DNA of 23,051 nucleotides, taken from the IMG/VR virus record IMGVR_UViG_3300049825_000233, positions 1 to 23,051 of that record; one strand, written 5' to 3'. Made by a program: the position numbers and the translations under genes. Positions 12,568 to 23,051 of this stretch are shown here, in pieces. The notes under the pieces are model-generated. The model worked only from the letters and a program-made list of their open reading frames with translations. It did no database searches and was not told the origin of the DNA. The stretch's first letter is position 1. Every line of letters begins with the position of its first letter. Origin of the DNA: a virus.

Positions 12568-13578
12568 TTAGCTGATGACGGTTTCGGTGGCGAGGAGTGC
12601 GTCGCAGCGGCGGACCGGGATGTCGTCGAACGCGAGAACGCGCTTTCCTGCAACGGTGTCCATGGTGAGCGACGCGTTCTTGACCGCGTTGGTGATCTGC
12701 TTGCGCAGGAAGGTCCGGGTGCGGCGGTTCATGTACCACGCCAGACGGGTGGACCCGGCAGCGCCCTGCGGGAGCCGCTCGACCGCATCGGTCATCAGGT
12801 CGATCAGGTCCGGGCCGCTCGTGGCGTCCTTGACGAGGTCTTCCTGATTGAACTGGATGCGGACCACGTAGCGCCAGTCGCGGACGGACAGGCCGCCAGT
12901 CCACTGGTAGTGCGTGCGGTAGGCTTCCATGCGACCGCCAGTCGGTCCGCCCGGGGCGTTCTCGACGGTGACGCGGCCAAGGTCTTCGACCTGAATGCCG
13001 GTCGGGATGCCCTTCGGGAAGAACATGTGGACCGTGTTCGGCCCCCAGCCGACCAGCCAGATCGAGGCGTTGTCCGAGGCGTCGGTGCCGGGCTGCAGGA
13101 CGATGTTGTCCGCCGACTGCGCCGAGAGCGAGTTGAACCGCGCGGCGAGGCCGGTGAACTTGGCTTCGTCGATGAGGTCGTTGCCGTAGAACAGGGTCGA
13201 GGCGAACTCTTGGTTCATGCCCTCGACGTAGGCCATGTCCTCGCTCAGGCGCCACGCGTCCTCGTTACCGTTGAGGTCGGCGAGCATCTTGTCGACTTCC
13301 GCGTAGGCTTCCATGTTGCCCGCGGTGTCGGTGACCTGAGCGGTCGTGCTCTTGCCCGGGACCACGCCGTAGTTCAGCTTGCGCCACGTCGGAGCGGGAA
13401 TGCCGGTGCGAACCGTGGTCTTGTGGCCGGTGGGCAGATTGCCCTCGACCCAGACCGCGTCTTCGAGGATTTCGTTCGTGAGGTTGAGAACCTCGGCGAC
13501 CTTCTGGACCTTGCCGTCCACGCCTTCGCGGTTGGCGAAATCGAGGAGCGTCGGGTGGGTGGTAGCAAGAACGGCCAT
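12568..13578 (-). CDS. Major capsid protein (GP7/Bbp17-like)
   Basis: This 336-aa protein opens MAVLATTHPTLLDFANREGVDGKV and continues NEILEDAVWVEGNLPTGHKTTVRTGIP and STTAQVTDTAGNMEAYAEVDKMLADLNGN, the recognisable N-terminal half of GP7-like major capsid proteins. The fold in this family is HK97-type. ASTLFYGND and the Arg-rich WYMNRRTRTFLRKQI segment are also family-typical. It lies between the scaffold and cement genes, as in BPP-1. The ATG at 13578 follows the scaffold stop by a few bases (AAGAGGTAATCACGATG), with AGAGG serving as a ribosome site. A candidate internal promoter lies in the scaffold gene about 60 to 90 nt upstream, which would suit a gene needed at high level. Confidence 0.94.
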   Translation of the reverse strand: MAVLATTHPTLLDFANREGVDGKVQKVAEVLNLTNEILEDAVWVEGNLPTGHKTTVRTGIPAPTWRKLNYGVVPGKSTTAQVTDTAGNMEAYAEVDKMLADLNGNEDAWRLSEDMAYVEGMNQEFASTLFYGNDLIDEAKFTGLAARFNSLSAQSADNIVLQPGTDASDNASIWLVGWGPNTVHMFFPKGIPTGIQVEDLGRVTVENAPGGPTGGRMEAYRTHYQWTGGLSVRDWRYVVRIQFNQEDLVKDATSGPDLIDLMTDAVERLPQGAAGSTRLAWYMNRRTRTFLRKQITNAVKNASLTMDTVAGKRVLAFDDIPVRRCDALLATETVIS

Positions 13579-13583
13579 CGTGA

Positions 13584-14252
13584 TTACCTCTTGGGCTTAC
13601 TGGTCGGGTGGTCGTAGAACGAACCGGTGGGAGCGCTTGTAGACCCGTTCACAAAGTCGTGTTCACCAGTCGCCTTCCCGACGCGGTAAAACAGGCGGAT
13701 TACCTCGGGATGATCGCCCAATCCGCTCTGGTTGAGCAGCTCGGTCAGCTCTGGTGTACCGAAGCGATCACGCCCCGCAACCGCGATCGGCAGGTTGGTC
13801 GCGAACGCCTTGCCGCCGAACTCGGGATCGGCCTGCGCCTGCTCGCGCCACGCGGCTCGCTGCTCGATGATCTGGTCCGCAAAGGCTTGGTTCTGCTCGG
13901 CCTGCAGCTCGACCGCCATGTCGACGAGGCCCTGCGCCTCGGCCTGCGTCAAGTTCTTCGCCTTGGAGAACTCCTTGAGCTTGTCGATCTTCTCCGCGTT
14001 GAGCGTGACGCCGTCAGGCGCTTCGAAGTCCGCGTACTCCTCGGGCGCACCCTCGGGTGTCTCTTCCTTCTCGCCCTCGACAACCTCGGCTTCGCCTTCG
14101 GGCTTCTCGCCCTCGGGCTTCTCGCCCTCGACAACCTCGGCTTCGCCTTCGACAACCTCGGCTTCGCCTTCGACGACAGTCTCAGAAGTGAGCGGCGCGT
14201 CCATCAGGAGCGGCTGCGGGGCTTCTACGGCGGCGGGTGCTTCATCAGCCAT
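13584..14252 (-). CDS. Scaffolding / capsid assembly protein with acidic repeats
   Basis: I start it at the ATG at 14252 (MADEAPAAVEAPQPLL, 222 aa) rather than the ATG two codons upstream. The later ATG overlaps the upstream stop (ATGGCTGA) and has AAGGA at about 7 nt, while for the earlier ATG that site is too close. Residues about 25-70 consist of acidic heptads of the VVEGEAE/EGEKPEG type. A helical region (about 80-140, EKIDKLKEFSKAKNLTQAEAQGLVDMAVELQAEQNQAF) and a more globular C-terminus follow. Helical, acidic proteins directly upstream of the capsid gene are typically scaffolds that bind capsid by their C-terminus. The last part includes GRDRFGTPELTELLNQSGLGDHPEVIRLFYRVGKA, a pattern common in phage scaffold proteins. 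Confidence 0.88.
   Translation of the reverse strand: MADEAPAAVEAPQPLLMDAPLTSETVVEGEAEVVEGEAEVVEGEKPEGEKPEGEAEVVEGEKEETPEGAPEEYADFEAPDGVTLNAEKIDKLKEFSKAKNLTQAEAQGLVDMAVELQAEQNQAFADQIIEQRAAWREQAQADPEFGGKAFATNLPIAVAGRDRFGTPELTELLNQSGLGDHPEVIRLFYRVGKATGEHDFVNGSTSAPTGSFYDHPTSKPKR
13636..13667 (-). promoter_or_regulatory. Candidate phage promoter, copy D (upstream of capsid gene)
   Basis: GGTGAACAC occupies 13667-13659 on the minus strand. After 14 nt comes GTCTAC (13644-13639), with TACAAG as a weak -10. It lies inside the scaffold gene, about 60 nt before the capsid ATG. The flank GACTGGTGAACAC is shared exactly with the copy at 14588-14596. This is the least well conserved copy in its second half. 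Confidence 0.45.
14068..14177 (-). repeat. In-frame acidic 21-nt repeats in the scaffold gene
   Basis: Tandem units on the plus strand such as CTCGGCTTCGCCTTCGACAA recur with mostly 21-nt spacing, encoding repeated VVEGEAE, with shorter EGEKP units between. Such tracts change length by slippage without breaking the frame. Confidence 0.85.
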
Positions 14253-14556
14253 TTGCATTTTCCTTCATCATTACAGCGTATTCGTCTGGGGTGAGCTGGG
14301 CGGTGAGCCACAGCCCAAGGTTGCGTTGCCCCTCGTTGAAGGCGGTGTGCAGCGCGTCCCCCGCGACGAAAGAGATGCGCTGCACACCCGCCATGTCGAG
14401 CAGTTTAAACACTACCCTACGCCCCTGTTCGGTCGACATCACGGTGCGGATGTCGTCTTCGGCGATCGTTCGCCGGATGAGCGCCTTGTTGTCGCGCTCT
14501 TCCTGCTGCGCGGCACGCACGTCCGGGTCGATCGAATATGGTCTTCGGGAGGACAT
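14245..14556 (-). CDS. Bbp19-like small structural protein
   Basis: This 103-aa protein contains GRRVVFKLLDMAGVQRISFVAGDALHTAFNEGQRNLGLWLTAQL (about residues 45-88). It is the diagnostic core of the Bbp19 family of podovirus head proteins (F-NEGQRN-G). It sits between portal and scaffold, as in BPP-1. Its role is likely head assembly or a minor head component; no enzymatic motif is present. The ATG at 14556 has no Shine-Dalgarno sequence. Instead the bases immediately before it form the second half of a repeated bipartite motif, so its mRNA may be leaderless. Its stop overlaps the scaffold ATG. Phe-Lys at about residue 50 is encoded TTT AAA inside a GTTTAAAC palindrome. Confidence 0.9.
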   Translation of the reverse strand: MSSRRPYSIDPDVRAAQQEERDNKALIRRTIAEDDIRTVMSTEQGRRVVFKLLDMAGVQRISFVAGDALHTAFNEGQRNLGLWLTAQLTPDEYAVMMKENANG

Positions 14557-14557
14557 T

Positions 14558-14596
14558 GCGCGTAGCGTAGCACACTACCAACTGGTTGTGTTCACC
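14558..14596 (-). promoter_or_regulatory. Candidate phage promoter, copy C (abuts bbp19-like start)
   Basis: On the minus strand GGTGAACAC (14596-14588), a 14-nt spacer, then GTGCTACGCTACGCGC (14573-14558), one base before the ATG at 14556. It shares 14 of 16 bases of the second block, and the exact spacer length, with the copy before terS. TGCTACGCT can be read as a weak extended -10 whose start point would fall at the ATG. Confidence 0.65.
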
Positions 14597-14598
14597 AG

Positions 14599-16311
14599 TC
14601 AGATTTCGGTGGCGGAAGGCGACTGGTAGCCGCTGAACAGATTGAGGATGTCGGCCCCCGCGTTGTTCTCCGGTGCGCCCCCTGTCTGGACCCCGCCGAG
14701 CTTGCCCGCCGCGCCGGCCAGCTTCTCGGCCATCTCAGCCTGCTGCTGCTGCGCGATAGCCTGCGCCCGCTGCTGGCGCACCAGCGCGACCTTGTCGTCG
14801 CTGACGATCAGGTCCGGGTCGACGCCGAGCTGGTCCGCGTAGCGCTCGATCGACTTGTCGCCGTCGAACTTGTCGAAGCCGGACGGGTCGCCGCTCGCCT
14901 GCGCGAGCATCCCAATGTGGCCCACCAGCCGATCGACCGCGTTGACGTTGACCGCCTTCTGGGCCTGCGCGAGCATCGAGACGAACTCGACCTGCAGCTC
15001 CTGTCCGTTCAGCTCCTCAGGGAGCGGCGGCAGGATGCCCGTCTCGACGCAGCGCTGGAACGTCATCGTCACCATCGGGTCGAGCAGCTCGTTGTGCAGG
15101 CGCTCCAGCACCGGCCCGAGCATCAGGAGCTTCTCCTCGTGGCGTTCGGCCACCTCGGTCGCGGTCATGTTCTTGTCGGCCTGCGCGATCATCAGGAACA
15201 TGTCGGCGAAGAACGCCGAGTTGATCCTCTCGCGCACGTCGCGGATGTCTTCGAGCAGGACGTTGGGATCGAGCTTGACGTCGAACGCCGTCCGCACCCC
15301 GCCCTGCGGCTGGGCGCTGTCGTAGTACGACACGCCCCCGGGGAGGAAGTCCGCGTTCTGGTTGCGCAGCGCGAGCGGGGCCTGCAGCGGCGGATCGGTC
15401 TGGTAGTCGATCACCTTGGCCTTGGCGCGCTGGTTGTGCTGGAGCTGCAGCAGATCGCCAAGCGCGTCCATGCCCGGGCTCGACCCGTAGGTGTCGCCCC
15501 ACAGCACGTCCCACCGAGGGCCGAGGGCCGGGAAGTCGCGGTAGCCGCCCTCACTGAGCAGGCCGCTCTCCGGCCCATCGCTCTCCTTGGCGTCCCAGTA
15601 GCACGACTTGTAGGCCATGTTGTACTTGTCGCGCTTGCCCGGCTCGCGGTTCGTGTTCGGCTGGAGCAGGTGCATCACGCTGATCTCGCGGCTGTAGTTG
15701 CCGTTGTCGTACGCGTTGCGCGTGGTGGCCGAGACGCTGTTGTATCCGAACCACTGGATAGCCTGCTCGACCGTGAGCTTGAACTCGCGGCCCAGCTTGT
15801 CGACGTAGCCCTCGTGGCTGGTGCCCAGCGCGTACTCGCCCACGGTCATCGTGTTGTGGTGGATGATCCGGTCGAAGTTCGGCTGGACCACGCTGAGCCC
15901 GGTGCCAAAGCCGCCCAACTCGCGGTACATGAAGTGCAGCGCGTTGTAGGTGTTGGACTTGCGGAAGATGCGCAGCAGCAGCTTAGTCACGTCGTCGAGC
16001 CAGACCTTGACGTTGTGCGTCGCGGCGAGGTCTTCGTCGGGCAGCGAGAGGCGGAACCACGGACGCGCCGGGCTGGTCATGCCCGCCATCATCCCTGCCG
16101 AGAGGGTGCGCAGCGCGCGGGTGCCGGCGCTGTCGATGATGTCCTGATTGCGGTCCCCGCCACGGTTGCGGCTGTCGGTGAAGAACCGCGACTGGCGCGG
16201 CAGCAGGTTGTTGGCGATCGACTTCCAGTGGCTGTCCCAGCCCTGTTCGCGATCCTTCTTCAGCGTGTTCCAGCGCTGCAGCGCGCGTTTGCGCTCGTCG
16301 AGACGGTCCAT
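14599..16311 (-). CDS. Portal / head-tail connector protein
   Basis: I place the start at the ATG at 16311 (MDRLDERKRALQRWNTLKKDREQGWDSHW, 570 aa); the frame is open a further 12 codons upstream but that would run into the preceding gene. The upstream stop is TAA, then one base, then this ATG. WDSHWKSIANNLLPRQSRF, GTRALRTLSAGMMAGMTSPARPWFRL and GTGLSVVQPNFD are characteristic of T7/BPP-1-type head-tail connectors. The C-terminal third contains a Gln/Ala-rich helix (about 500-545, RQQRAQAIAQQQQAEMAEKLAG) and a Gly-rich tail. Twelve copies should form the portal ring through which TerL pumps DNA and to which the gp11-like adaptor docks. Confidence 0.95.
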   Translation of the reverse strand: MDRLDERKRALQRWNTLKKDREQGWDSHWKSIANNLLPRQSRFFTDSRNRGGDRNQDIIDSAGTRALRTLSAGMMAGMTSPARPWFRLSLPDEDLAATHNVKVWLDDVTKLLLRIFRKSNTYNALHFMYRELGGFGTGLSVVQPNFDRIIHHNTMTVGEYALGTSHEGYVDKLGREFKLTVEQAIQWFGYNSVSATTRNAYDNGNYSREISVMHLLQPNTNREPGKRDKYNMAYKSCYWDAKESDGPESGLLSEGGYRDFPALGPRWDVLWGDTYGSSPGMDALGDLLQLQHNQRAKAKVIDYQTDPPLQAPLALRNQNADFLPGGVSYYDSAQPQGGVRTAFDVKLDPNVLLEDIRDVRERINSAFFADMFLMIAQADKNMTATEVAERHEEKLLMLGPVLERLHNELLDPMVTMTFQRCVETGILPPLPEELNGQELQVEFVSMLAQAQKAVNVNAVDRLVGHIGMLAQASGDPSGFDKFDGDKSIERYADQLGVDPDLIVSDDKVALVRQQRAQAIAQQQQAEMAEKLAGAAGKLGGVQTGGAPENNAGADILNLFSGYQSPSATEI

Positions 16312-16312
16312 C

Positions 16313-16630
16313 TTAGGCGCCCCCGAGCAGCGACGGTCGCCCGCCAAGCATCCCCGCGAGCGACGGTACGCCCTTCGAGCCGGTCAGGAAGGTCGAGCCG
16401 ATCCCCTTGCCGCTCGCGTTGAGGTTCTTCTGCAGGATCGCAGCGATCCCGGGTTGCTTCTGGTTGGCCCGGTTGTACTGTTCCTCGGACCGCTGGGCGT
16501 TGCCCTCAGCGATCTGGACGTTCTGCTTCTGAGCCGCGGCCTGCTGCTTGCTGGCCTTGCTCGCGGTGTAGACTGACGTGCCTGCCCCGAGGACAGCGGC
16601 ACCAATGATGGCGGAAACGGGATCGCACAT
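16313..16630 (-). CDS. Small MCDP protein between TerL and portal
   Basis: This 105-aa protein begins MCDPVSAIIGAAVLGAGTSVYTASKASKQQ: a short hydrophobic Gly/Ala segment (about 6-22) followed by a Gln/Ala/Lys helix (about 25-60) and a Gly/Ser/Leu-rich tail. Proteins starting MC-[DG]-P in this place are common in podovirus packaging clusters and may be virion-associated or membrane-active, but no function is established. The MC-x-P start and the later IAEGNA-x-R segment resemble the start of the gp14-like protein (MCSP..., ISEGNARN), which suggests common origin. The ATG has AGGTGA a few bases upstream, overlapping the TerL stop. Confidence 0.82.
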   Translation of the reverse strand: MCDPVSAIIGAAVLGAGTSVYTASKASKQQAAAQKQNVQIAEGNAQRSEEQYNRANQKQPGIAAILQKNLNASGKGIGSTFLTGSKGVPSLAGMLGGRPSLLGGA

Positions 16631-16633
16631 AGG

Positions 16634-18268
16634 TCACCTGTTGTAAGGGTTGTAGCCCCGGCGTTGAGAGGACGCTGTACCACCTCGCTGCAAACCGTGT
16701 TCACCGCCTGTGGGGAGCGAGCGCGGGGTGCGGATCAGCGCGAGCATCATCGCGGTGGCCCGGTCAGGCGATCTGCCGATCCGCTTGACGATGTCCTCGC
16801 GGCTCTCGACGTAGATCGACGCCCCGCGCAGCGTCCACTTCGCAGAGGTCAGCTCGAGCAAGATGTTGCGGCCCGGGGGCAGCGCTACGCCGTTGTTCGC
16901 ATCGGGGTCGAGCACCTCGCGCATCCGCCACCACAGCTCGGAGCGCTGGTTGAAGAACGTGAGCCGCCCCGACTTGTCTGTGCCCAGCGCCTTCTCCGAG
17001 ACGTTGATCCCGAGCACCTGCTGGCCTGCCTGCATCAGGAAGTCGTACGGGCTCGCACCGACGCCGATCACGTCGATATGGATCGGTGCGTGGTCGCGGT
17101 TCGAGGCTATCACCATGCCAGCCGTGCTCGGCCCGTCTGGCGTCTCCTTGCCGGGGTACTCGATCAGCTCGTCGAACCACAGGTCGTGGCTCAGGCGCGA
17201 AATGACGGTGTCGTCCTCGCCGCCGCGTGCCACGTCGACCCCGAGACTGGCGATCTCGGGCCGCGGCATCCGCGTCTTCCACCGCGCCTGCGCAATCTCG
17301 ACCCACTTGGTCGGGATGACCTGCCACGGGTCGTCGCTCATCCCGGCCTTGAAGTCGCCGTAGAGCATCTGGCTGCGGAGCGGTTCGGGCAGCGCTTGGA
17401 GCGTGGACATGTAGTTGGTCCTTACGAGAAACGGGTTGTCGCCCACCGAACTGGGGACGAAGGTGCGCGACTGCGGCAGGATGATCTCCGCGGCACGCGA
17501 GCCGCGGTACTTGGCCGGGTCGAAGTTGTAGACCCACTCGCCGTTCTCGACCACGAAGGGGGTCTTGTCCTGCACTTCCACGTCCTGCGCCTTGCCATCG
17601 CGATCGGGGACCGAGGCGAAGATGCGCAGGTCACCCGGCAGGGCGGGGTTGGGGTACTTCTCGTCGAGCCACGGGGCGAAGTAGTCGATCACCCAGCGCC
17701 CCTCTGCGGTGGTCGGCGGGTTGAACGTGAGCAGCGACTGCATGGGCTGGTTGGGGTCTGTGGTGCGCGTCCAGCCCATCAGGAACACGACCATGTCGCG
17801 CAGGAAGTTCGCCGCCTCGTCGATCCCGAGGAAGTCACGCGCCTGCCCCTGATAGTTCATCTCGTCGCCGAGGTTCGGGGTCGAGCCGAAGCGCACCATG
17901 CGATTGTTCGAGAGGCGCCAAATCTTGTCCGACTTGTTGAAGCCATCCGTACCGCCCATGATCTCGGTCATGCGGTTGTAGATGCCCTGCATCTGGGTGG
18001 CTTCGCGGCGCAGGATGTAGCTCACGGTGTGCTGGTTGAGCGCCTTGCCGATCATTAGGTCGGTCTTACCCCCGCCCGCTGCGCCCCCGTAGCCGAGCAC
18101 GTCGGCGGTGCTGTGATACGCCATGGACTGCGGCCCGGGGAGCGGGCGCCATACCGCGTTTACACAGTCCTGCGCCAACAACTCGAACAGCTCTTCCCGC
18201 TCCTCGACGGTGAGGTGCGGGAGAAGCTCTTCGACTTCGGGGATGCTGAACGGGTCAGCTTCGAGCAT
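16634..18268 (-). CDS. terL: Terminase large subunit (TerL)
   Basis: This 544-aa protein has all parts of a packaging motor. The ATPase Walker A motif is GAAGGGKT (62-69), Walker B is FLGIDE (146-151), and a coupling-like TFNP lies near 181. The C-terminal RNase H-like nuclease has D345 in SLGVDVARGG, D399 in HIDVIGVG and D502 in RSPDRATAMMLAL, the three expected acidic residues. The last 40 residues are Gly/Arg/Ser-rich and probably flexible. Its ATG lies a few bases after the stop of the exported-protein gene, with no strong ribosome site, so coupling is likely. A candidate promoter lies near its 3' end. Function: ATP-driven packaging of DNA into the procapsid and cutting of the concatemer, together with TerS and portal. 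Confidence 0.96.
   Translation of the reverse strand: MLEADPFSIPEVEELLPHLTVEEREELFELLAQDCVNAVWRPLPGPQSMAYHSTADVLGYGGAAGGGKTDLMIGKALNQHTVSYILRREATQMQGIYNRMTEIMGGTDGFNKSDKIWRLSNNRMVRFGSTPNLGDEMNYQGQARDFLGIDEAANFLRDMVVFLMGWTRTTDPNQPMQSLLTFNPPTTAEGRWVIDYFAPWLDEKYPNPALPGDLRIFASVPDRDGKAQDVEVQDKTPFVVENGEWVYNFDPAKYRGSRAAEIILPQSRTFVPSSVGDNPFLVRTNYMSTLQALPEPLRSQMLYGDFKAGMSDDPWQVIPTKWVEIAQARWKTRMPRPEIASLGVDVARGGEDDTVISRLSHDLWFDELIEYPGKETPDGPSTAGMVIASNRDHAPIHIDVIGVGASPYDFLMQAGQQVLGINVSEKALGTDKSGRLTFFNQRSELWWRMREVLDPDANNGVALPPGRNILLELTSAKWTLRGASIYVESREDIVKRIGRSPDRATAMMLALIRTPRSLPTGGEHGLQRGGTASSQRRGYNPYNR
16678..16705 (-). promoter_or_regulatory. Candidate phage promoter, copy B (before the MCDP gene and portal)
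   Basis: GGTGAACAC (16705-16697 on the minus strand), a 13-nt spacer, then GTGGTA (16683-16678), one mismatch from the GTGCTA of copies A and C. It lies inside the 3' end of terL, about 50 nt before the MCDP start, which keeps a normal ribosome site. Confidence 0.55.
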
Positions 18269-18271
18269 GGC

Positions 18272-19108
18272 TTACGGCCCGGTGTGCCCTTGGCAGTTGA
18301 CCCACGCGGTGCCCGTGGTGTTGGCCGTGGTGGTCACCACTTCGAGCAGCGTGTTCGCGGTGCTGCGCAGCGGCGTGTCGAAGTTGAGGTTGATCGGCTG
18401 CAGGAAGCCCGCAGTGGGCACGCTGAGCGCGAAGATCACGGTGCCGCCTGCGCCATCGCGGATCGCGATCGGCACGCTCGTGCCGAAGGCCGTTGTGTTG
18501 ATCTGGCAACTGTCGATGTAGTTGCGCACCGAGGCGCCGGCAGCGGCCTTGATGGTCACCGCGGTCGTGGTGTTCGACAGGATGCCCGTCGCACCGTTCG
18601 CGTAGCTCCAGTACGTGCTGCTCAGACCGCGCTGCACGACCAACCCGTTGGTGTCCCCGCGCTGCCGATCAAAGGTCGAGCCATTGAAGACGAAGTTGTG
18701 GGTCGCGAGGCGCCCGCTCTGGTTGGTGTCGACCGTGGCGGCTTGGAGAAGGTTACCGGACGCGGCGTCAGCCCCCGAGCCCTGATTGGTGCCCGAGATA
18801 ACGGTAGCACCCTGCAGGCTCAGCCACAGGTTCGCTCTGTCGCCCTGCGCGACGATAGCCGGGCTGGCGTGCGCCACACCGCCAACCTTGACCGGGTTGC
18901 CGCTGTCGACCGCGTCGTGCGCCACGTCGCCCGCGACTGCGCCGACTGTCGAGCCGTCCGCGCTGCGGATGGTGACCTGCACAGGGTCGCCGAACCCGGG
19001 CGGCACACCCTGCACGCGGGGCGAGTTGCTGGTCCCGTTCTGGGCGTACGCTGGAGACACACAGGCCGCGAGGGCGAGGATGATCGAGAGGGAGATGATG
19101 CGTTTCAC
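18272..19108 (-). CDS. Exported protein with virion-like sequence, between TerS and TerL
   Basis: The GTG at 19108 is supported by TAGGAG at 8 nt; that site overlaps the terS stop. The 278-aa product starts MKRIISLSIILALAACVSPAYA, a classic export signal. It offers a lipobox L13-A14-A15-C16 and also a signal peptidase I site after A20-Y21-A22. The rest, including VAHDAVDSGNPVKVGGVAHASPAIVAQGDRANLWLSL and a C-terminal SVRNYIDSCQINT...TPLRSTANTLLEV...TGTAWVNCQGH, resembles beta-rich phage decoration or fibre-like proteins, which normally lack a signal. It could be a lipoprotein acting at the envelope (for example superinfection exclusion) or a surface decoration protein; both are inference. It lies within the terminase operon, in frame and undamaged. 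Cys residues at about 187 and 272 might form a disulfide after export. Confidence 0.85.
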   Translation of the reverse strand: MKRIISLSIILALAACVSPAYAQNGTSNSPRVQGVPPGFGDPVQVTIRSADGSTVGAVAGDVAHDAVDSGNPVKVGGVAHASPAIVAQGDRANLWLSLQGATVISGTNQGSGADAASGNLLQAATVDTNQSGRLATHNFVFNGSTFDRQRGDTNGLVVQRGLSSTYWSYANGATGILSNTTTAVTIKAAAGASVRNYIDSCQINTTAFGTSVPIAIRDGAGGTVIFALSVPTAGFLQPINLNFDTPLRSTANTLLEVVTTTANTTGTAWVNCQGHTGP

Positions 19109-19119
19109 GTGGTGTACTC

Positions 19120-19611
19120 CTAGCTGAAAGGATCAGGGTCTTCGCCCGGCGTGCCCGCCGCGCGTCGGCGTGCAGCAGCGTCGAGCAGCGCAGTGATGCG
19201 TGCCGCCGCGGTGGTTTCGTTGAAATCGTTGAGCGGTGCGCCGCCCGGCCCGGACAGCTCGCTCTTGGTGCGGTCCGCGAACTGCTCAGGGCGGGTTGCC
19301 TTGAGCAAGGCGAGCATCAGGGTGTCGCTGTACTGGACCTCGGTGATGAAGCGAGCGCTGTCGCCCGAGCCGATCACCTTCTCGCGCTCCACACCTTCGT
19401 AGGCGCGGCGCCGGGCTTCCTCGAAGAGCGTGTCGCTGGCGGTGTCGAGTGCGTCGACGTAGCCCTGCGCGAAGGCCGCGTCGTTCTTGCGCCACTGGCG
19501 TATCACCTCGTGCGAGCAGCCGATCGCCTCACGCCCACGGCGCTCGATCCCCGTCTGGGCGAGGATGTCGAGGAACATCTGCTTCTCGTCGTCGGTGTAT
19601 TGCTGGGCCAT
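19120..19611 (-). CDS. terS: Terminase small subunit (TerS)
   Basis: This 163-aa protein fits the TerS pattern: N-terminal helix-turn-helix (about 8-38, FLDILAQTGIERRGREAIGCSHEVIRQWRKND), a helical central part (AAFAQGYVDALDTASDTLFEEARRRAYEGVERE) and a C-terminal helix with KATRPEQFADRTK. The segment LLKATRPEQFADR...ELSGPGGAPL is typical of phage TerS and tends to mark the region that contacts TerL. It should bind the packaging site and regulate TerL. The ATG at 19611 has no visible ribosome site; the bases directly upstream are the second half of the bipartite motif, so the mRNA may be leaderless. TerL follows after one intervening gene, an uncommon interruption. Confidence 0.9.
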   Translation of the reverse strand: MAQQYTDDEKQMFLDILAQTGIERRGREAIGCSHEVIRQWRKNDAAFAQGYVDALDTASDTLFEEARRRAYEGVEREKVIGSGDSARFITEVQYSDTLMLALLKATRPEQFADRTKSELSGPGGAPLNDFNETTAAARITALLDAAARRRAAGTPGEDPDPFS

Positions 19612-19650
19612 GCGCGTACCATAGCACGCGGTTCGCGGGGCGTGTTCACC
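19612..19650 (-). promoter_or_regulatory. Candidate phage promoter, copy A (abuts terS start)
   Basis: On the minus strand GGTGAACAC (19650-19642), a 14-nt spacer, then GTGCTATGGTACGCGC (19627-19612), followed directly by the terS ATG. TGCTATGGT resembles an extended -10 (TGnTATAAT) with four of six hexamer matches. The predicted start would be at or next to the ATG. The GGTGAACAC block overlaps the stop of the HTH gene. Confidence 0.65.
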
Positions 19651-19858
19651 ACGCCTTGTCGAGCGGCGCGACCCGGGCTTGGTAGTTCACGATCAGGATC
19701 ACGTAGCGCTTGCTCACTTCGAACTTCTCGGCCAGCCGTGAGGTCGACCAGTAGCGCACCCCGCGAGGCTTGAAGCGGTCCGCCTCGTACAGGTCGCGGA
19801 TCATGTCGACCTCGTCGTCCGTGAGCTTGGTCTTCGCGTTGTTCAGGCCGTAGGGCAT
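19646..19858 (-). CDS. Small helix-turn-helix-like protein upstream of TerS
   Basis: This 70-aa protein contains LTDDEVDMIRDLYEADR, then WSTSRLAEKFEVSKRYVILIVNYQARV, a likely helix-turn-helix (about residues 40-62: S-x-x-x-L-A-x-x-F-x-V-S-x-x-x-V). Its length and position before terS suggest a small DNA-binding protein, perhaps a regulator or a packaging-related accessory. The same kind of HTH is seen in N-terminal parts of phage HNH proteins, but no HNH motif follows here. The ATG overlaps the stop of the truncated transposase gene (TGATG), so its original upstream region may have been replaced by the insertion. Function not established. Confidence 0.75.
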   Translation of the reverse strand: MPYGLNNAKTKLTDDEVDMIRDLYEADRFKPRGVRYWSTSRLAEKFEVSKRYVILIVNYQARVAPLDKAW

Positions 19859-20424
19859 CAGTCCGCAATCATACGCTTTGGGGCTTTGCCGCCGCGTTCC
19901 ACGACACCAACGACGGCCTGTTTCTTACTCGCATGGCCGCGCGGCGCAGGCGGGTCGTCGTCCCGATTATTGGCTTTTCGCGGCTTACCGCCAACATAGG
20001 TTTCGTCGATTTCGACAAGGCCGGTAAGCATCGAAGCGTCAACGTCGCGCGCCATCGCGGCGCGGACGCGGTGCATCATCGACCAAACAGTCGGCATCCG
20101 CATTTCGAGATCACGCGCGGCCTGCGCTGCGGACAGCCCTTTTTTGGCGTTCAACATCAAGGAAATCAGCAGAAACCAGCGTTGCAGGTCGATGTGGCTG
20201 TTGTGAAAGATGGTGCCGACGGTCACAGAATAGGACCGCTTGCAAGCCTGACACTGCCAGCGCGCACCGGTCAGAGTGCGCGTCGGGTCGTTCTTGCGAG
20301 AGGCCTTGGGGCTGGCGCAGTAAGGGCAAATAGGTCCGTCCGGCCAGCGCACCGTTTCAAGATGTTCGATTGCGGCGGCACCGTCCGGAAACTGGCGGTA
20401 GATCGAGACGATGGACTCGGCCAT
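19858..20424 (-). pseudogene. IS1595-family (ISXO2-like) transposase, 3' part missing
   Basis: From the ATG at 20424 (a TTG at 20454 is also in frame) 188 residues are encoded. They include a zinc ribbon with C33/C36 and C58/C61, an HTH region (about 97-125, GLSAAQAARDLEMRMPTVWSMMHRVR) and the first catalytic Asp in VEIDETYVGGK (D140). The frame ends at KRMIAD. IS1595 transposases are usually around 300 residues, and the second Asp and the final Asn/His/Glu region are absent. None of it appears in other frames downstream, where phage genes begin at once, so it cannot be an active transposase. Base composition is visibly lower in GC than neighbouring genes, indicating foreign origin. A retained role as a DNA-binding protein is possible but unsupported. 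No inverted terminal repeat could be assigned. Confidence 0.82.
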
Positions 20425-20453
20425 GAGTTTGTGCTTTCTGGCGGTGTCGTGCA

Positions 20454-20469
20454 ACGGCGTTCGCGCCGT
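20454..20469. other. Small hairpin before the transposase fragment
   Basis: ACGGCG, TTCG, CGCCGT on the plus strand form a perfect 6-bp stem (loop CGAA on the minus strand). It lies in the leader of the truncated transposase. Confidence 0.5.
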
Positions 20470-21435: not shown

Positions 21436-23051
21436 TTACGAGAATGGGTCGACCTCATCCTCGTCTTCCTCGACGTACAGCCAGTCACGCTCGACGCGAT
21501 AAACCCACCCAGCCATCCCCCGACGCCGTTTGCGCAGCGCGCCAAGCGCCACCAGCACCGCTCCGACACGCGCCTGATCGCCCGGTGTGACCTGCGCCAG
21601 CCGCTTCCCGATCGCGCCCACAAGAACGTCCGTCGTGCCCCACGTGTAGGGGTTATCGACCGGCACCTTGCCGGTCATCGGGTCTTCTTCGAGCAGCCAG
21701 CGCGTCACCGCTGGCCCCCATGCGTCCGCGCTTGAGAACTTCACGTGCTCATCCTTCGCCAATGTCTCTGCCTCTCGCCAGTCGATCCCGCCCGCCTTGA
21801 ACTTGGCGATCCCCTCGGCCCAGAGCTGATCGCGGTCTGCGGCGATCCTGTCGAGGTCGATCATCGTGCCGGCATCGCCCGCACCGCAGACCCTGAACGG
21901 CAGGAAGCGCCGCGAGCCCGTGGGGTCTTTGAGGATGTCCTCGGGGTTGCATGTGCCGTGCAGGATCGCGCGACGTTTAAACGATGTACTGAACTCTTGG
22001 TACTTCGGCACCCACGTCTCGACCTGCTTGGTGATGAAGGTCTTGAAGTCCTCGTCGTCGATGTTCCGCACGCGGCTCATCTCACTCATCTCGACCACCA
22101 GCACCCCGCGCATCAGTCTGGGCGTGTCCGCGTCGCGATGCCCGACCTTTAGCTCGAGGAACATCGACGACACCGGCGACATCGCCAGCAGCGCCGCGCT
22201 CTTGTACTGCCCTTGCGGCCCCTGCCAGATCGTCGCCATGTCGGCCTTGATCCCGGGGACCAGCAGGCGGCCCGCGTGCGCGGTCCAGATGTACCGCCCG
22301 ACTGACCGGTGGTACTCGTCGTCGTCCGTCTTGAGGTAGTCCGGCAGGAAGCGCTCGATCCGCTCTACACCGTCCCACGCCGGCAGGCGCTCGGCCCACT
22401 GCAGCGCGAGGTCGGTCGCGCGCAGCTCGGCGGCCTTGATGACCGCGGGCCTGAGCGTCGCTGGCTGCAACGACTTGAACCCCCGGTTGTCCATCCGCAT
22501 CGCCACCGAGGCGTAGTCGCTGTCACGCCACGCGCGCCAGTTGTCCGGCTCGCCCTGCGGTGCCCAGACGATCTGGGCCGTGAAGTCGTCGTAGGCGATA
22601 TGCCTGCCTGCGAGATGCGGGTGCGTGAGGAACTGGACGAAGTTGTAGGTGTTCGCTTCGATCCGCCCCTTGCCATCGGTGATGAACCGGACCTCGGGCT
22701 CTTGCTCCTCAACCACCTCGATCGCGGTGCCCGGCTCTGCGGCTGGCTCTTCCTCAACCACCGGGAAGGTCGAGGCGGTGTACCCACAGGCGTGCTCGAA
22801 CTCGTCGTCGGTCCGCCCCATGCAGTGCGCGTGCAGGCACTTGAAGTGCCCCTGCTGGTAGCCGCGTGTACCAGCGACGTAATACACTGTCTCACTCGGC
22901 CCGGAGAACGAGGTGTGCTCGTCGTCGAACGGACAGCGGATGAATATCTCCCCATCGCGGCCCTCGTCGCGCACTTCCCACTCGGCGAGCAGGAACTGTG
23001 CCACCGGGTCTTCGAGCCCGGGACGTGGGCTGTCATCGGCGGTAAGCCGGG
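21436..23051 (-). CDS. VapE/D5-like primase-helicase, N-terminus beyond window
   Basis: The frame stays open from the stop at 21436 to the right edge. The in-frame GTG at 23004 is probably not the true start, because coding-like sequence (RLTADDSPRPGLEDP) continues upstream. Counting from that GTG: C24-x5-H30 and C56/C61 form a zinc-finger-like part as in phage primases (GHFKCLHAHC). A VapE-type ATPase follows, with Walker A GPQGQYKS (262-269), Walker B-like VLVVEMSEM (301-309) and GSRRFLPF (363-370) as arginine-finger region. The usual last Gly of the P-loop is Tyr. Related proteins often carry a primase-polymerase domain N-terminally, which would lie outside the window. Its role is likely initiation or unwinding in phage DNA replication. 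Phe-Lys at 342-343 is encoded within a GTTTAAAC palindrome. Confidence 0.88.
   Translation of the reverse strand, partial: RLTADDSPRPGLEDPVAQFLLAEWEVRDEGRDGEIFIRCPFDDEHTSFSGPSETVYYVAGTRGYQQGHFKCLHAHCMGRTDDEFEHACGYTASTFPVVEEEPAAEPGTAIEVVEEQEPEVRFITDGKGRIEANTYNFVQFLTHPHLAGRHIAYDDFTAQIVWAPQGEPDNWRAWRDSDYASVAMRMDNRGFKSLQPATLRPAVIKAAELRATDLALQWAERLPAWDGVERIERFLPDYLKTDDDEYHRSVGRYIWTAHAGRLLVPGIKADMATIWQGPQGQYKSAALLAMSPVSSMFLELKVGHRDADTPRLMRGVLVVEMSEMSRVRNIDDEDFKTFITKQVETWVPKYQEFSTSFKRRAILHGTCNPEDILKDPTGSRRFLPFRVCGAGDAGTMIDLDRIAADRDQLWAEGIAKFKAGGIDWREAETLAKDEHVKFSSADAWGPAVTRWLLEEDPMTGKVPVDNPYTWGTTDVLVGAIGKRLAQVTPGDQARVGAVLVALGALRKRRRGMAGWVYRVERDWLYVEEDEDEVDPFS

Follow-up and report, generated by a model that had tools for sequence, protein, structure and literature searches.

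Late gene region of the window

The window (23,051 nt of viral DNA, positions 1 to 23,051 of IMG/VR record IMGVR_UViG_3300049825_000233) was analysed for four copies of the 9-mer GGTGAACAC that precede terminase and head genes. Its genes identify the window as part of the genome of a BPP-1-like podophage. Its large terminase subunit (TerL) was 54% identical to Bbp25 of BPP-1 and 70-73% identical to the proteins of the nearest uncultivated relatives. The family gene order was kept (TerS, a T7 gp14-like open reading frame (ORF), portal, Bbp19 (PF25181), protease/scaffold, capsid and tail genes), and the TerL, portal, Bbp19, protease/scaffold and capsid proteins were homologous to, and arranged as in, those of BPP-1-like phages (Rauchvirus relatives). 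The four copies, named A to D, were all found at the positions given in a preliminary description of this DNA, on the minus (gene) strand. The features are as follows; P1 to P3 denote places at gene junctions, and P003 and similar labels denote related phages.

19642 to 19651, minus strand: copy A, element TGGTGAACAC of the predicted terS promoter (place P1); orthologous sites in P003, P004, P005, P006 and P008
19618 to 19623, minus strand: putative -10 box of A, TATGGT, 20 nt after GTGAAC and 6 nt before the terS ATG; predicted leaderless start at 19611
19120 to 19611, minus strand: terS, the first gene after predicted promoter A, without a Shine-Dalgarno sequence; PHROG 4044, terminase small subunit, E 5.7e-33
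16697 to 16706, minus strand: copy B (CGGTGAACAC), place P2, within the C-terminal codons of terL; GAA kept in clade members with a P2 site
16674 to 16679, minus strand: weak putative -10 box of B, TACAGC, spacer 19
14588 to 14597, minus strand: copy C, element TGGTGAACAC of the predicted bbp19 promoter (place P3); ortholog in P065 (L065:3106)
14564 to 14569, minus strand: putative -10 box of C, TACGCT, 7 nt before the bbp19-like ATG; predicted leaderless start at 14556-14557
14245 to 14556, minus strand: bbp19-like gene, the first after predicted promoter C, without a Shine-Dalgarno sequence; Pfam PF25181 Phage_Bbp19, E 3.7e-17
13659 to 13668, minus strand: copy D (TGGTGAACAC), in the C-terminal codons of the scaffold gene, with the major capsid gene downstream; probably a site specific to the clade; 4/4 relatives retain the rare GGT codon
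13636 to 13641, minus strand: weak putative -10 box of D, TACAAG, spacer 19
19646 to 19858, minus strand: 70-aa bbp27-like helix-turn-helix (HTH) protein, candidate late regulator
16313 to 16630, minus strand: T7 gp14-like internal virion ORF downstream of B; PHROG 418, PF24072 below cut-off
12568 to 13578, minus strand: major capsid gene downstream of D, 58% identical to BPP-1 bbp17

The expectation for GGTGAACAC was 0.097 per strand under a second-order Markov model, in agreement with the earlier estimate of less than one chance copy. Because coding DNA is repetitive, many 9-mers reach four copies: 166 different 9-mers occurred at least four times on the coding strand of the window, GGTGAACAC being the least expected among them, and repetition of a 9-mer alone is not unusual on that strand. 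The distance from GTGAAC to the next start was 38 nt (A, terS), 74 nt (B, the T7 gp14-like ORF), 39 nt (C, the bbp19-like gene) and 88 nt (D, the capsid gene), which bears out the earlier figure of about 100 nt or less. The second block said to be common to A and C was identical at 14 of 16 bases; the corresponding blocks of B (TACAGC) and D (TACAAG) were weak, with a spacer of 19 rather than 20 nt.

Copy A and the stop codon of the small HTH ORF overlap. Copy B lies in codons of the TerL C-terminus and copy D in those of the C-terminus of the scaffold/protease gene, a coding overlap missed by the preliminary description; both read GGT GAA CAC (Gly-Glu-His).

Element and -10 box in related phages

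The window was compared with about 30 relatives, and 2.9 million viral contigs (IMG/VR) were scanned blind. An element of 10-13 bp, in a version of its own in each phage, was found at matching gene junctions, and in many relatives the same phage-specific element stood ahead of both terS and bbp19. In complete genomes it stood ahead of terS (P1), at the terL end (P2), ahead of bbp19 (P3) and ahead of bbp9 (P4), with some genomes also having it before bbp12 (P5). BPP-1 carried four exact copies of GGGTGCCCGTGCC (at terS, after terL, at bbp19 and at bbp9), all on the late strand. Three copies each were seen in Limnohabitans phage DC33 (GGTACCCGTATCC), P031 (GTTTCCATA) and P028 ((G)CGTCTCCTA), four in zth2-2 (GGTACCCGTA) and five in P013 (AGTTTCCATAAC). 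Caulobacter phage SR18 had three copies of GGTGCGCATGAT and, at the terL end, one more with two mismatches. In BPP-1, DC33, zth2-2, SR18, P013 and P031 all of these elements were on the late strand, and a TANNNT-like box followed at near-fixed spacing. The element lay upstream of several late operons and was rare elsewhere, with a host-type -10 at fixed spacing and without a good consensus -35.

Within the window clade (P003 to P009 and P065) the sites kept NNGAMC-N20-TA, the spacer being 19 or 21 in a few. Changes were coordinated within single phages: P003 had GTGACC at P1, P3 and D, and P008 had GAACTT at P1, P2 and P3. The P2 -10 box stood at spacer 20 in relatives (TATGGT in P004, TATGAC in P005, TATAAC in P007 and P009, TATGAT in P008).

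A weight-matrix scan had been suggested in the preliminary description, and with a matrix trained on relatives only the four copies were the top-scoring sites in the window (29.4 for C, 26.8 for A, 17.5 for D and 14.5 for B). Markov-simulated background gave 0.43 hits per genome at a score of at least 14 and 0.13 at a score of at least 16. A and C were far above this background and D and B only modestly above it; A and C are the strong sites, and B and D are weaker.

The blind scans used DNA only, with the pattern GGTACCCGTANC-N15-TANNNT-N6/7-ATG (the GGTACCCGTA version). This returned 74 sites, 71 of them in contigs with BPP-1-family late genes; many of the contigs were closely related, so that the 74 sites are not 74 independent events. 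The ATG was the exact start of the bbp19 homolog in 66 of the 74, the others standing before bbp24, bbp23 and bbp9, and three being chance-like. When the element was relaxed in the BPP-1-family contigs, all copies (99/99) had TA 14-15 nt downstream; about 25 of these had not been preselected by the scan, mainly P2 copies ahead of bbp24. An analogous scan with GTTTCCATAAC gave 44 sites, of which six fell at bbp19 or terS, the remainder looking like chance matches. The version of the window itself (GTGAACNC-N14-GTGCTANNNT-N6/7-ATG) gave eight matches, none in BPP-1-family contigs, and was unseen outside close relatives. Seven of those eight loci (L074-L081), from other phages, had GTGAACAC-N14-GTGCTACTATAGGGA ahead of an ATG; this is TATAGGGA-like, and TATAGGGA resembles the promoter of a T7-type polymerase. 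A search with terS as the query gave no matches.

The earlier proposal that the repeats are a phage late promoter family is strongly supported by this comparison, with copies at the same late-gene junctions and a fixed distance to TANNNT; the random scatter in genes of relatives that would have spoken against it was not seen. Some points of the earlier reading need correction: the second block is a -10 box and no new element, and GGTGAACAC is private to close relatives of the window, whereas the architecture is family-wide. That the element acts otherwise in RNA or DNA (packaging, replication or translation control) and is no part of a promoter is scarcely credible: one site adjoins terS, a possible location for a packaging site, but several sites are far from terS, each stands before a gene start, and the spacing to TANNNT is fixed.

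A further copy of the element was seen in P004 (L063 3739, minus strand) on the opposite strand, with the -10 box ending 6 nt before an ATG in a leaderless arrangement; the ORF behind it encodes 1003 aa (PHROG 34846, unknown).

Copies B and D

Both weaker copies are in the same codon phase, encode Gly-Glu-His at conserved C-termini and have poor -10 boxes, and an E-D/E-H motif is common to the scaffold relatives. They might thus be coding coincidences, with only A and C regulatory, although this has the smaller share of the probability. P2, the place of B, is a promoter place across the family. At B the peptide varies (EH, EL) while GAA stays in relatives with a P2 site, GAA making up 12-52% of Glu codons. 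At D the GGT codon was kept in all four phages, the share of GGT among Gly codons being 48% in one of them and 3%, 5% and 13% in the others, and the GTGACC of P003 at D matches its P1 and P3. TACA or TAAA at spacer 19 was likewise kept at D in the four phages (in relatives, TACAAG in P065, TAAACA in P004 and TAAACC in P003). Site D had no counterpart outside the window clade. Coding coincidence was dropped as the main view of the two copies given the family-wide P2 place and the codon checks. From these comparisons, B is probably a real site, and the balance tilts somewhat towards D being one as well.

At L056 2870 and L060 5707, coding sequence and predicted promoter overlap at P2, where the -10 box TACGAT also reads as the Tyr-Asp-Pro codons of the TerL C-terminus.

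Predicted leaderless starts

Of the 29 P1/P3 starts, 21 had a TA hexamer with its end 6-7 nt ahead of the start codon, compared with 8 of 136 other annotated starts (p 6e-14). This contrast is somewhat inflated, since the P1/P3 starts were assigned by homology and visual inspection, and the -10 was visible when ambiguous ones were chosen. Shine-Dalgarno-like 4-mers preceded 2 of the 29 P1/P3 starts and 74 of the 136 others, so that 27/29 P1/P3 starts are without one; both properties hold for A and C. The blind scan is independent of the choices made by eye. With a -10 box 6-7 nt before the ATG and the usual distance from -10 to +1, transcription would begin at the start codon, and leaderless mRNAs are predicted for terS and bbp19. 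The 6-8 nt from the second block to the transcription start that the preliminary description had proposed would likewise make the terS and bbp19 transcripts begin at the start codon. The P4 and P5 sites stand at least about 60 nt away from their genes, and a Shine-Dalgarno sequence precedes bbp9 in zth2-2; leaderlessness is therefore not general to the promoter set.

The annotated terS start of BPP-1 (L046, 26318) is 63 nt upstream of the family-matching ATG (26255) and is probably wrong because the promoter element falls inside the annotated gene.

In Caulobacter, leaderless mRNAs have been reported for 375 genes, 9.6% (PMC4117421). There, too, transcripts start at the start codon (measured there, predicted here) and a Shine-Dalgarno sequence is absent. 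The arrangement described here differs in being conserved within a family of phages, at two specified structural genes, and in that it is also predicted in Bordetella and Limnohabitans phages.

Candidate regulator

In most relatives a bbp27-like HTH protein of 55-90 residues is encoded directly before terS. Distances between elements followed those between HTH proteins (Mantel r 0.61), also when TerL distance was removed (partial Mantel r 0.47, p 2e-4), and followed those of the recognition-helix region with the rest of the HTH removed (r 0.47). Classes of recognition helix paired with versions of the element: [QR]D-I with GGGTRCGCAT, K-I-C with GGTACCCGTA and BPP-1, SKGY-SK with GTTTCCATA, and R-[YH] with GTGAAC.

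A host ECF-type alternative sigma factor as the reader of the promoters, with GAAC as the -35 core and TGCT as part of the -10, is very improbable. The GAAC and TGCTA of the window clade, 17 nt apart, do resemble the motif GGAAC-N16-TGCT of Caulobacter SigT (PMC4287350). At these places, however, the elements of relatives are very dissimilar in sequence (GGTACCCGTA, GTTTCCATA, GGGTGCGCAT), many -10 boxes of the clade are without TGCT (TATAAC, TATGGT, TATAGA), and a host sigma factor is not expected to track a phage HTH protein.

The bbp27-like proteins matched resolvase-type HTH_7 and HTH_38; weaker matches were to Sigma70_r4 and to PHROGs of late activators, and for one member the best PHROG match was a late transcriptional activator (E 1.3e-7). 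No match to Sigma70_r4 exceeded the curated cut-off, matches below it being seen in 2 of 8 records; resolvase HTH_7 scored better. The predicted structure was a three-helix HTH with a core confidence near 88, and a structure search returned generic three-helix HTH matches only, with no close solved relative.

The element could also be a true -35 box, read by a phage protein that resembles sigma region 4 and acts as a split or appropriating sigma. Such a role would suit the asymmetry, single orientation and fixed spacing of the element at -35, the two sub-cut-off Sigma70_r4 matches and the alignment of the generic three-helix HTH fold to sigma region 4 (Z about 4.5), but the better scores of HTH_7, and structural matches at a level common among HTH proteins, make it unlikely. 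Since its recognition helix covaries with the element, the bbp27-like HTH protein is the best candidate for the late regulator, which would act with host RNA polymerase.

Proposed mechanism

The four copies are very probably the version in the window of family-wide late promoters served by host polymerase and a phage HTH helper, with leaderless terS and bbp19 mRNAs. A phage-specific recognition element would lie at about -39 to -27, followed by a -10 box of the housekeeping sigma type (TANNNT; in A and C the longer GTGCTAYGST). Host RNA polymerase would initiate there while a small phage-encoded protein that binds DNA replaces or assists -35 recognition; the best candidate for this helper is the bbp27-like HTH protein encoded directly before terS. 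The terS and bbp19 mRNAs would begin at the start codon or one nucleotide earlier.

The preliminary description had named three possible readers of the motif: host polymerase with a phage activator, host polymerase with a phage sigma factor, or a phage polymerase. The best fit is host polymerase aided by a small phage protein that binds DNA, because no phage RNA polymerase is annotated in BPP-1, the -10 is housekeeping-like and the HTH protein covaries with the element. A search for PF00940 gave no matches, the controls being silent as well. The best reading of the protein's mode is host polymerase with the HTH at -35, where the protein may serve as an activator, a replacement for sigma region 4 or an antiterminator loader. 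A palindromic operator was tested and is not general, the element being mostly asymmetric.

The last of these modes would have the bbp27-like protein ride with RNA polymerase as an antiterminator, in the manner of Q or GafZ, rather than only activate initiation. Its gene position before the first late promoter resembles that of lambda Q, and GafZ of the Caulobacter gene transfer agent, with its sigma-like HTH, has a putative site that falls between the -35 and the -10 (PMC11150451). In BPP-1, the predicted promoter at P4 (L046 6186-6120, minus strand) overlaps a strong, perfect terminator-like hairpin (CCCCTGGGGAAG...CTTCCCCAGGGGTTTTT) that holds the -10 in its loop and lies between bbp10 and bbp9, upstream of the genes of the diversity-generating retroelement; by this geometry, read-through RNA would carry the whole hairpin and RNA started at P4 only its 3' half. 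Three to five late promoters would be needless with one antiterminated transcript, however, and the protein has only about 55-90 residues and one HTH, so that a loader role appears distinctly improbable.

Besides the inflated contrast of start codons and the poor -10 boxes of B and D, several points weigh against the proposed host-polymerase mechanism or its novelty. Element distance also correlated with TerL distance given the HTH (r 0.24, p 0.013), so that shared ancestry is not fully removed. The zth2-2/DC33 class has no element ahead of terS. A mostly non-palindromic element is unusual for a dimeric activator and leans away from one. No mapped BPP-1 late promoter was found in the open-access literature searched, most subscription papers lying outside it, and novelty is judged cautiously.

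Comparison with known systems

The late promoters of Mu (C/Mor) and P2 (Ogr) depend on a small phage activator. The predicted system shares with them the use of host RNA polymerase, the several late operons, a phage protein that would bind near -35 and the position of its gene beside the late region; here, in contrast, the element is centred at about -33 and mostly asymmetric, the protein is a single resolvase-type HTH, the element varies from phage to phage, and leaderless head-gene mRNAs are predicted. Promoters read by a phage sigma factor or a phage RNA polymerase (T4 gp55, SPO1, T7) also have a phage-specific sequence repeated before late genes, but here the -10 is of the housekeeping type, and no polymerase or sigma factor is annotated in BPP-1. 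With lambda Q, AlpA and GafZ (PMC11150451) the predicted system shares a regulator gene adjoining the late region, a sigma-like HTH (GafZ) and a site in the core promoter; those proteins act at one promoter by antitermination, whereas 3-5 separate promoters are predicted here.

Other features of the window and relatives

An IS1595-type transposase ORF, apparently truncated, lies at 19858-20454 of the window between the replication region and the HTH gene, with a related ORF in L063. At 18272-19108, a 278-aa ORF with a signal-peptide-like N-terminus and without a Pfam or PHROG match is inserted between terS and terL. The record of DC33 (L050, PQ492659) says Inoviridae, but the phage encodes a BPP-1-like terminase, portal, Bbp19 and tail genes. 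In Bordetella phage vB_BbrP_003 (L049), an intact bbp19 ORF at 21593-21950 is without annotation in the record.

Significance

We tentatively suggest that the family may share a single layout of late promoters, with a small HTH protein and an element of about 12 bp that co-diverge rapidly as private pairs, replace host recognition of the -35 and yield leaderless terminase and head mRNAs. A candidate late regulator is named, its gene having until now been annotated as endonuclease or hypothetical protein, and conserved leaderless mRNAs are predicted for phage head genes. The diverged pairs of protein and element would form a natural set for asking how DNA-binding specificity shifts without breaking a multi-promoter regulon. 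The result is an experimentally testable map of late transcription for the family of BPP-1, which is the model phage for diversity-generating retroelements. One of the four promoters predicted in BPP-1 precedes bbp9, and mtd, avd, the template repeat and the reverse transcriptase lie downstream of it.

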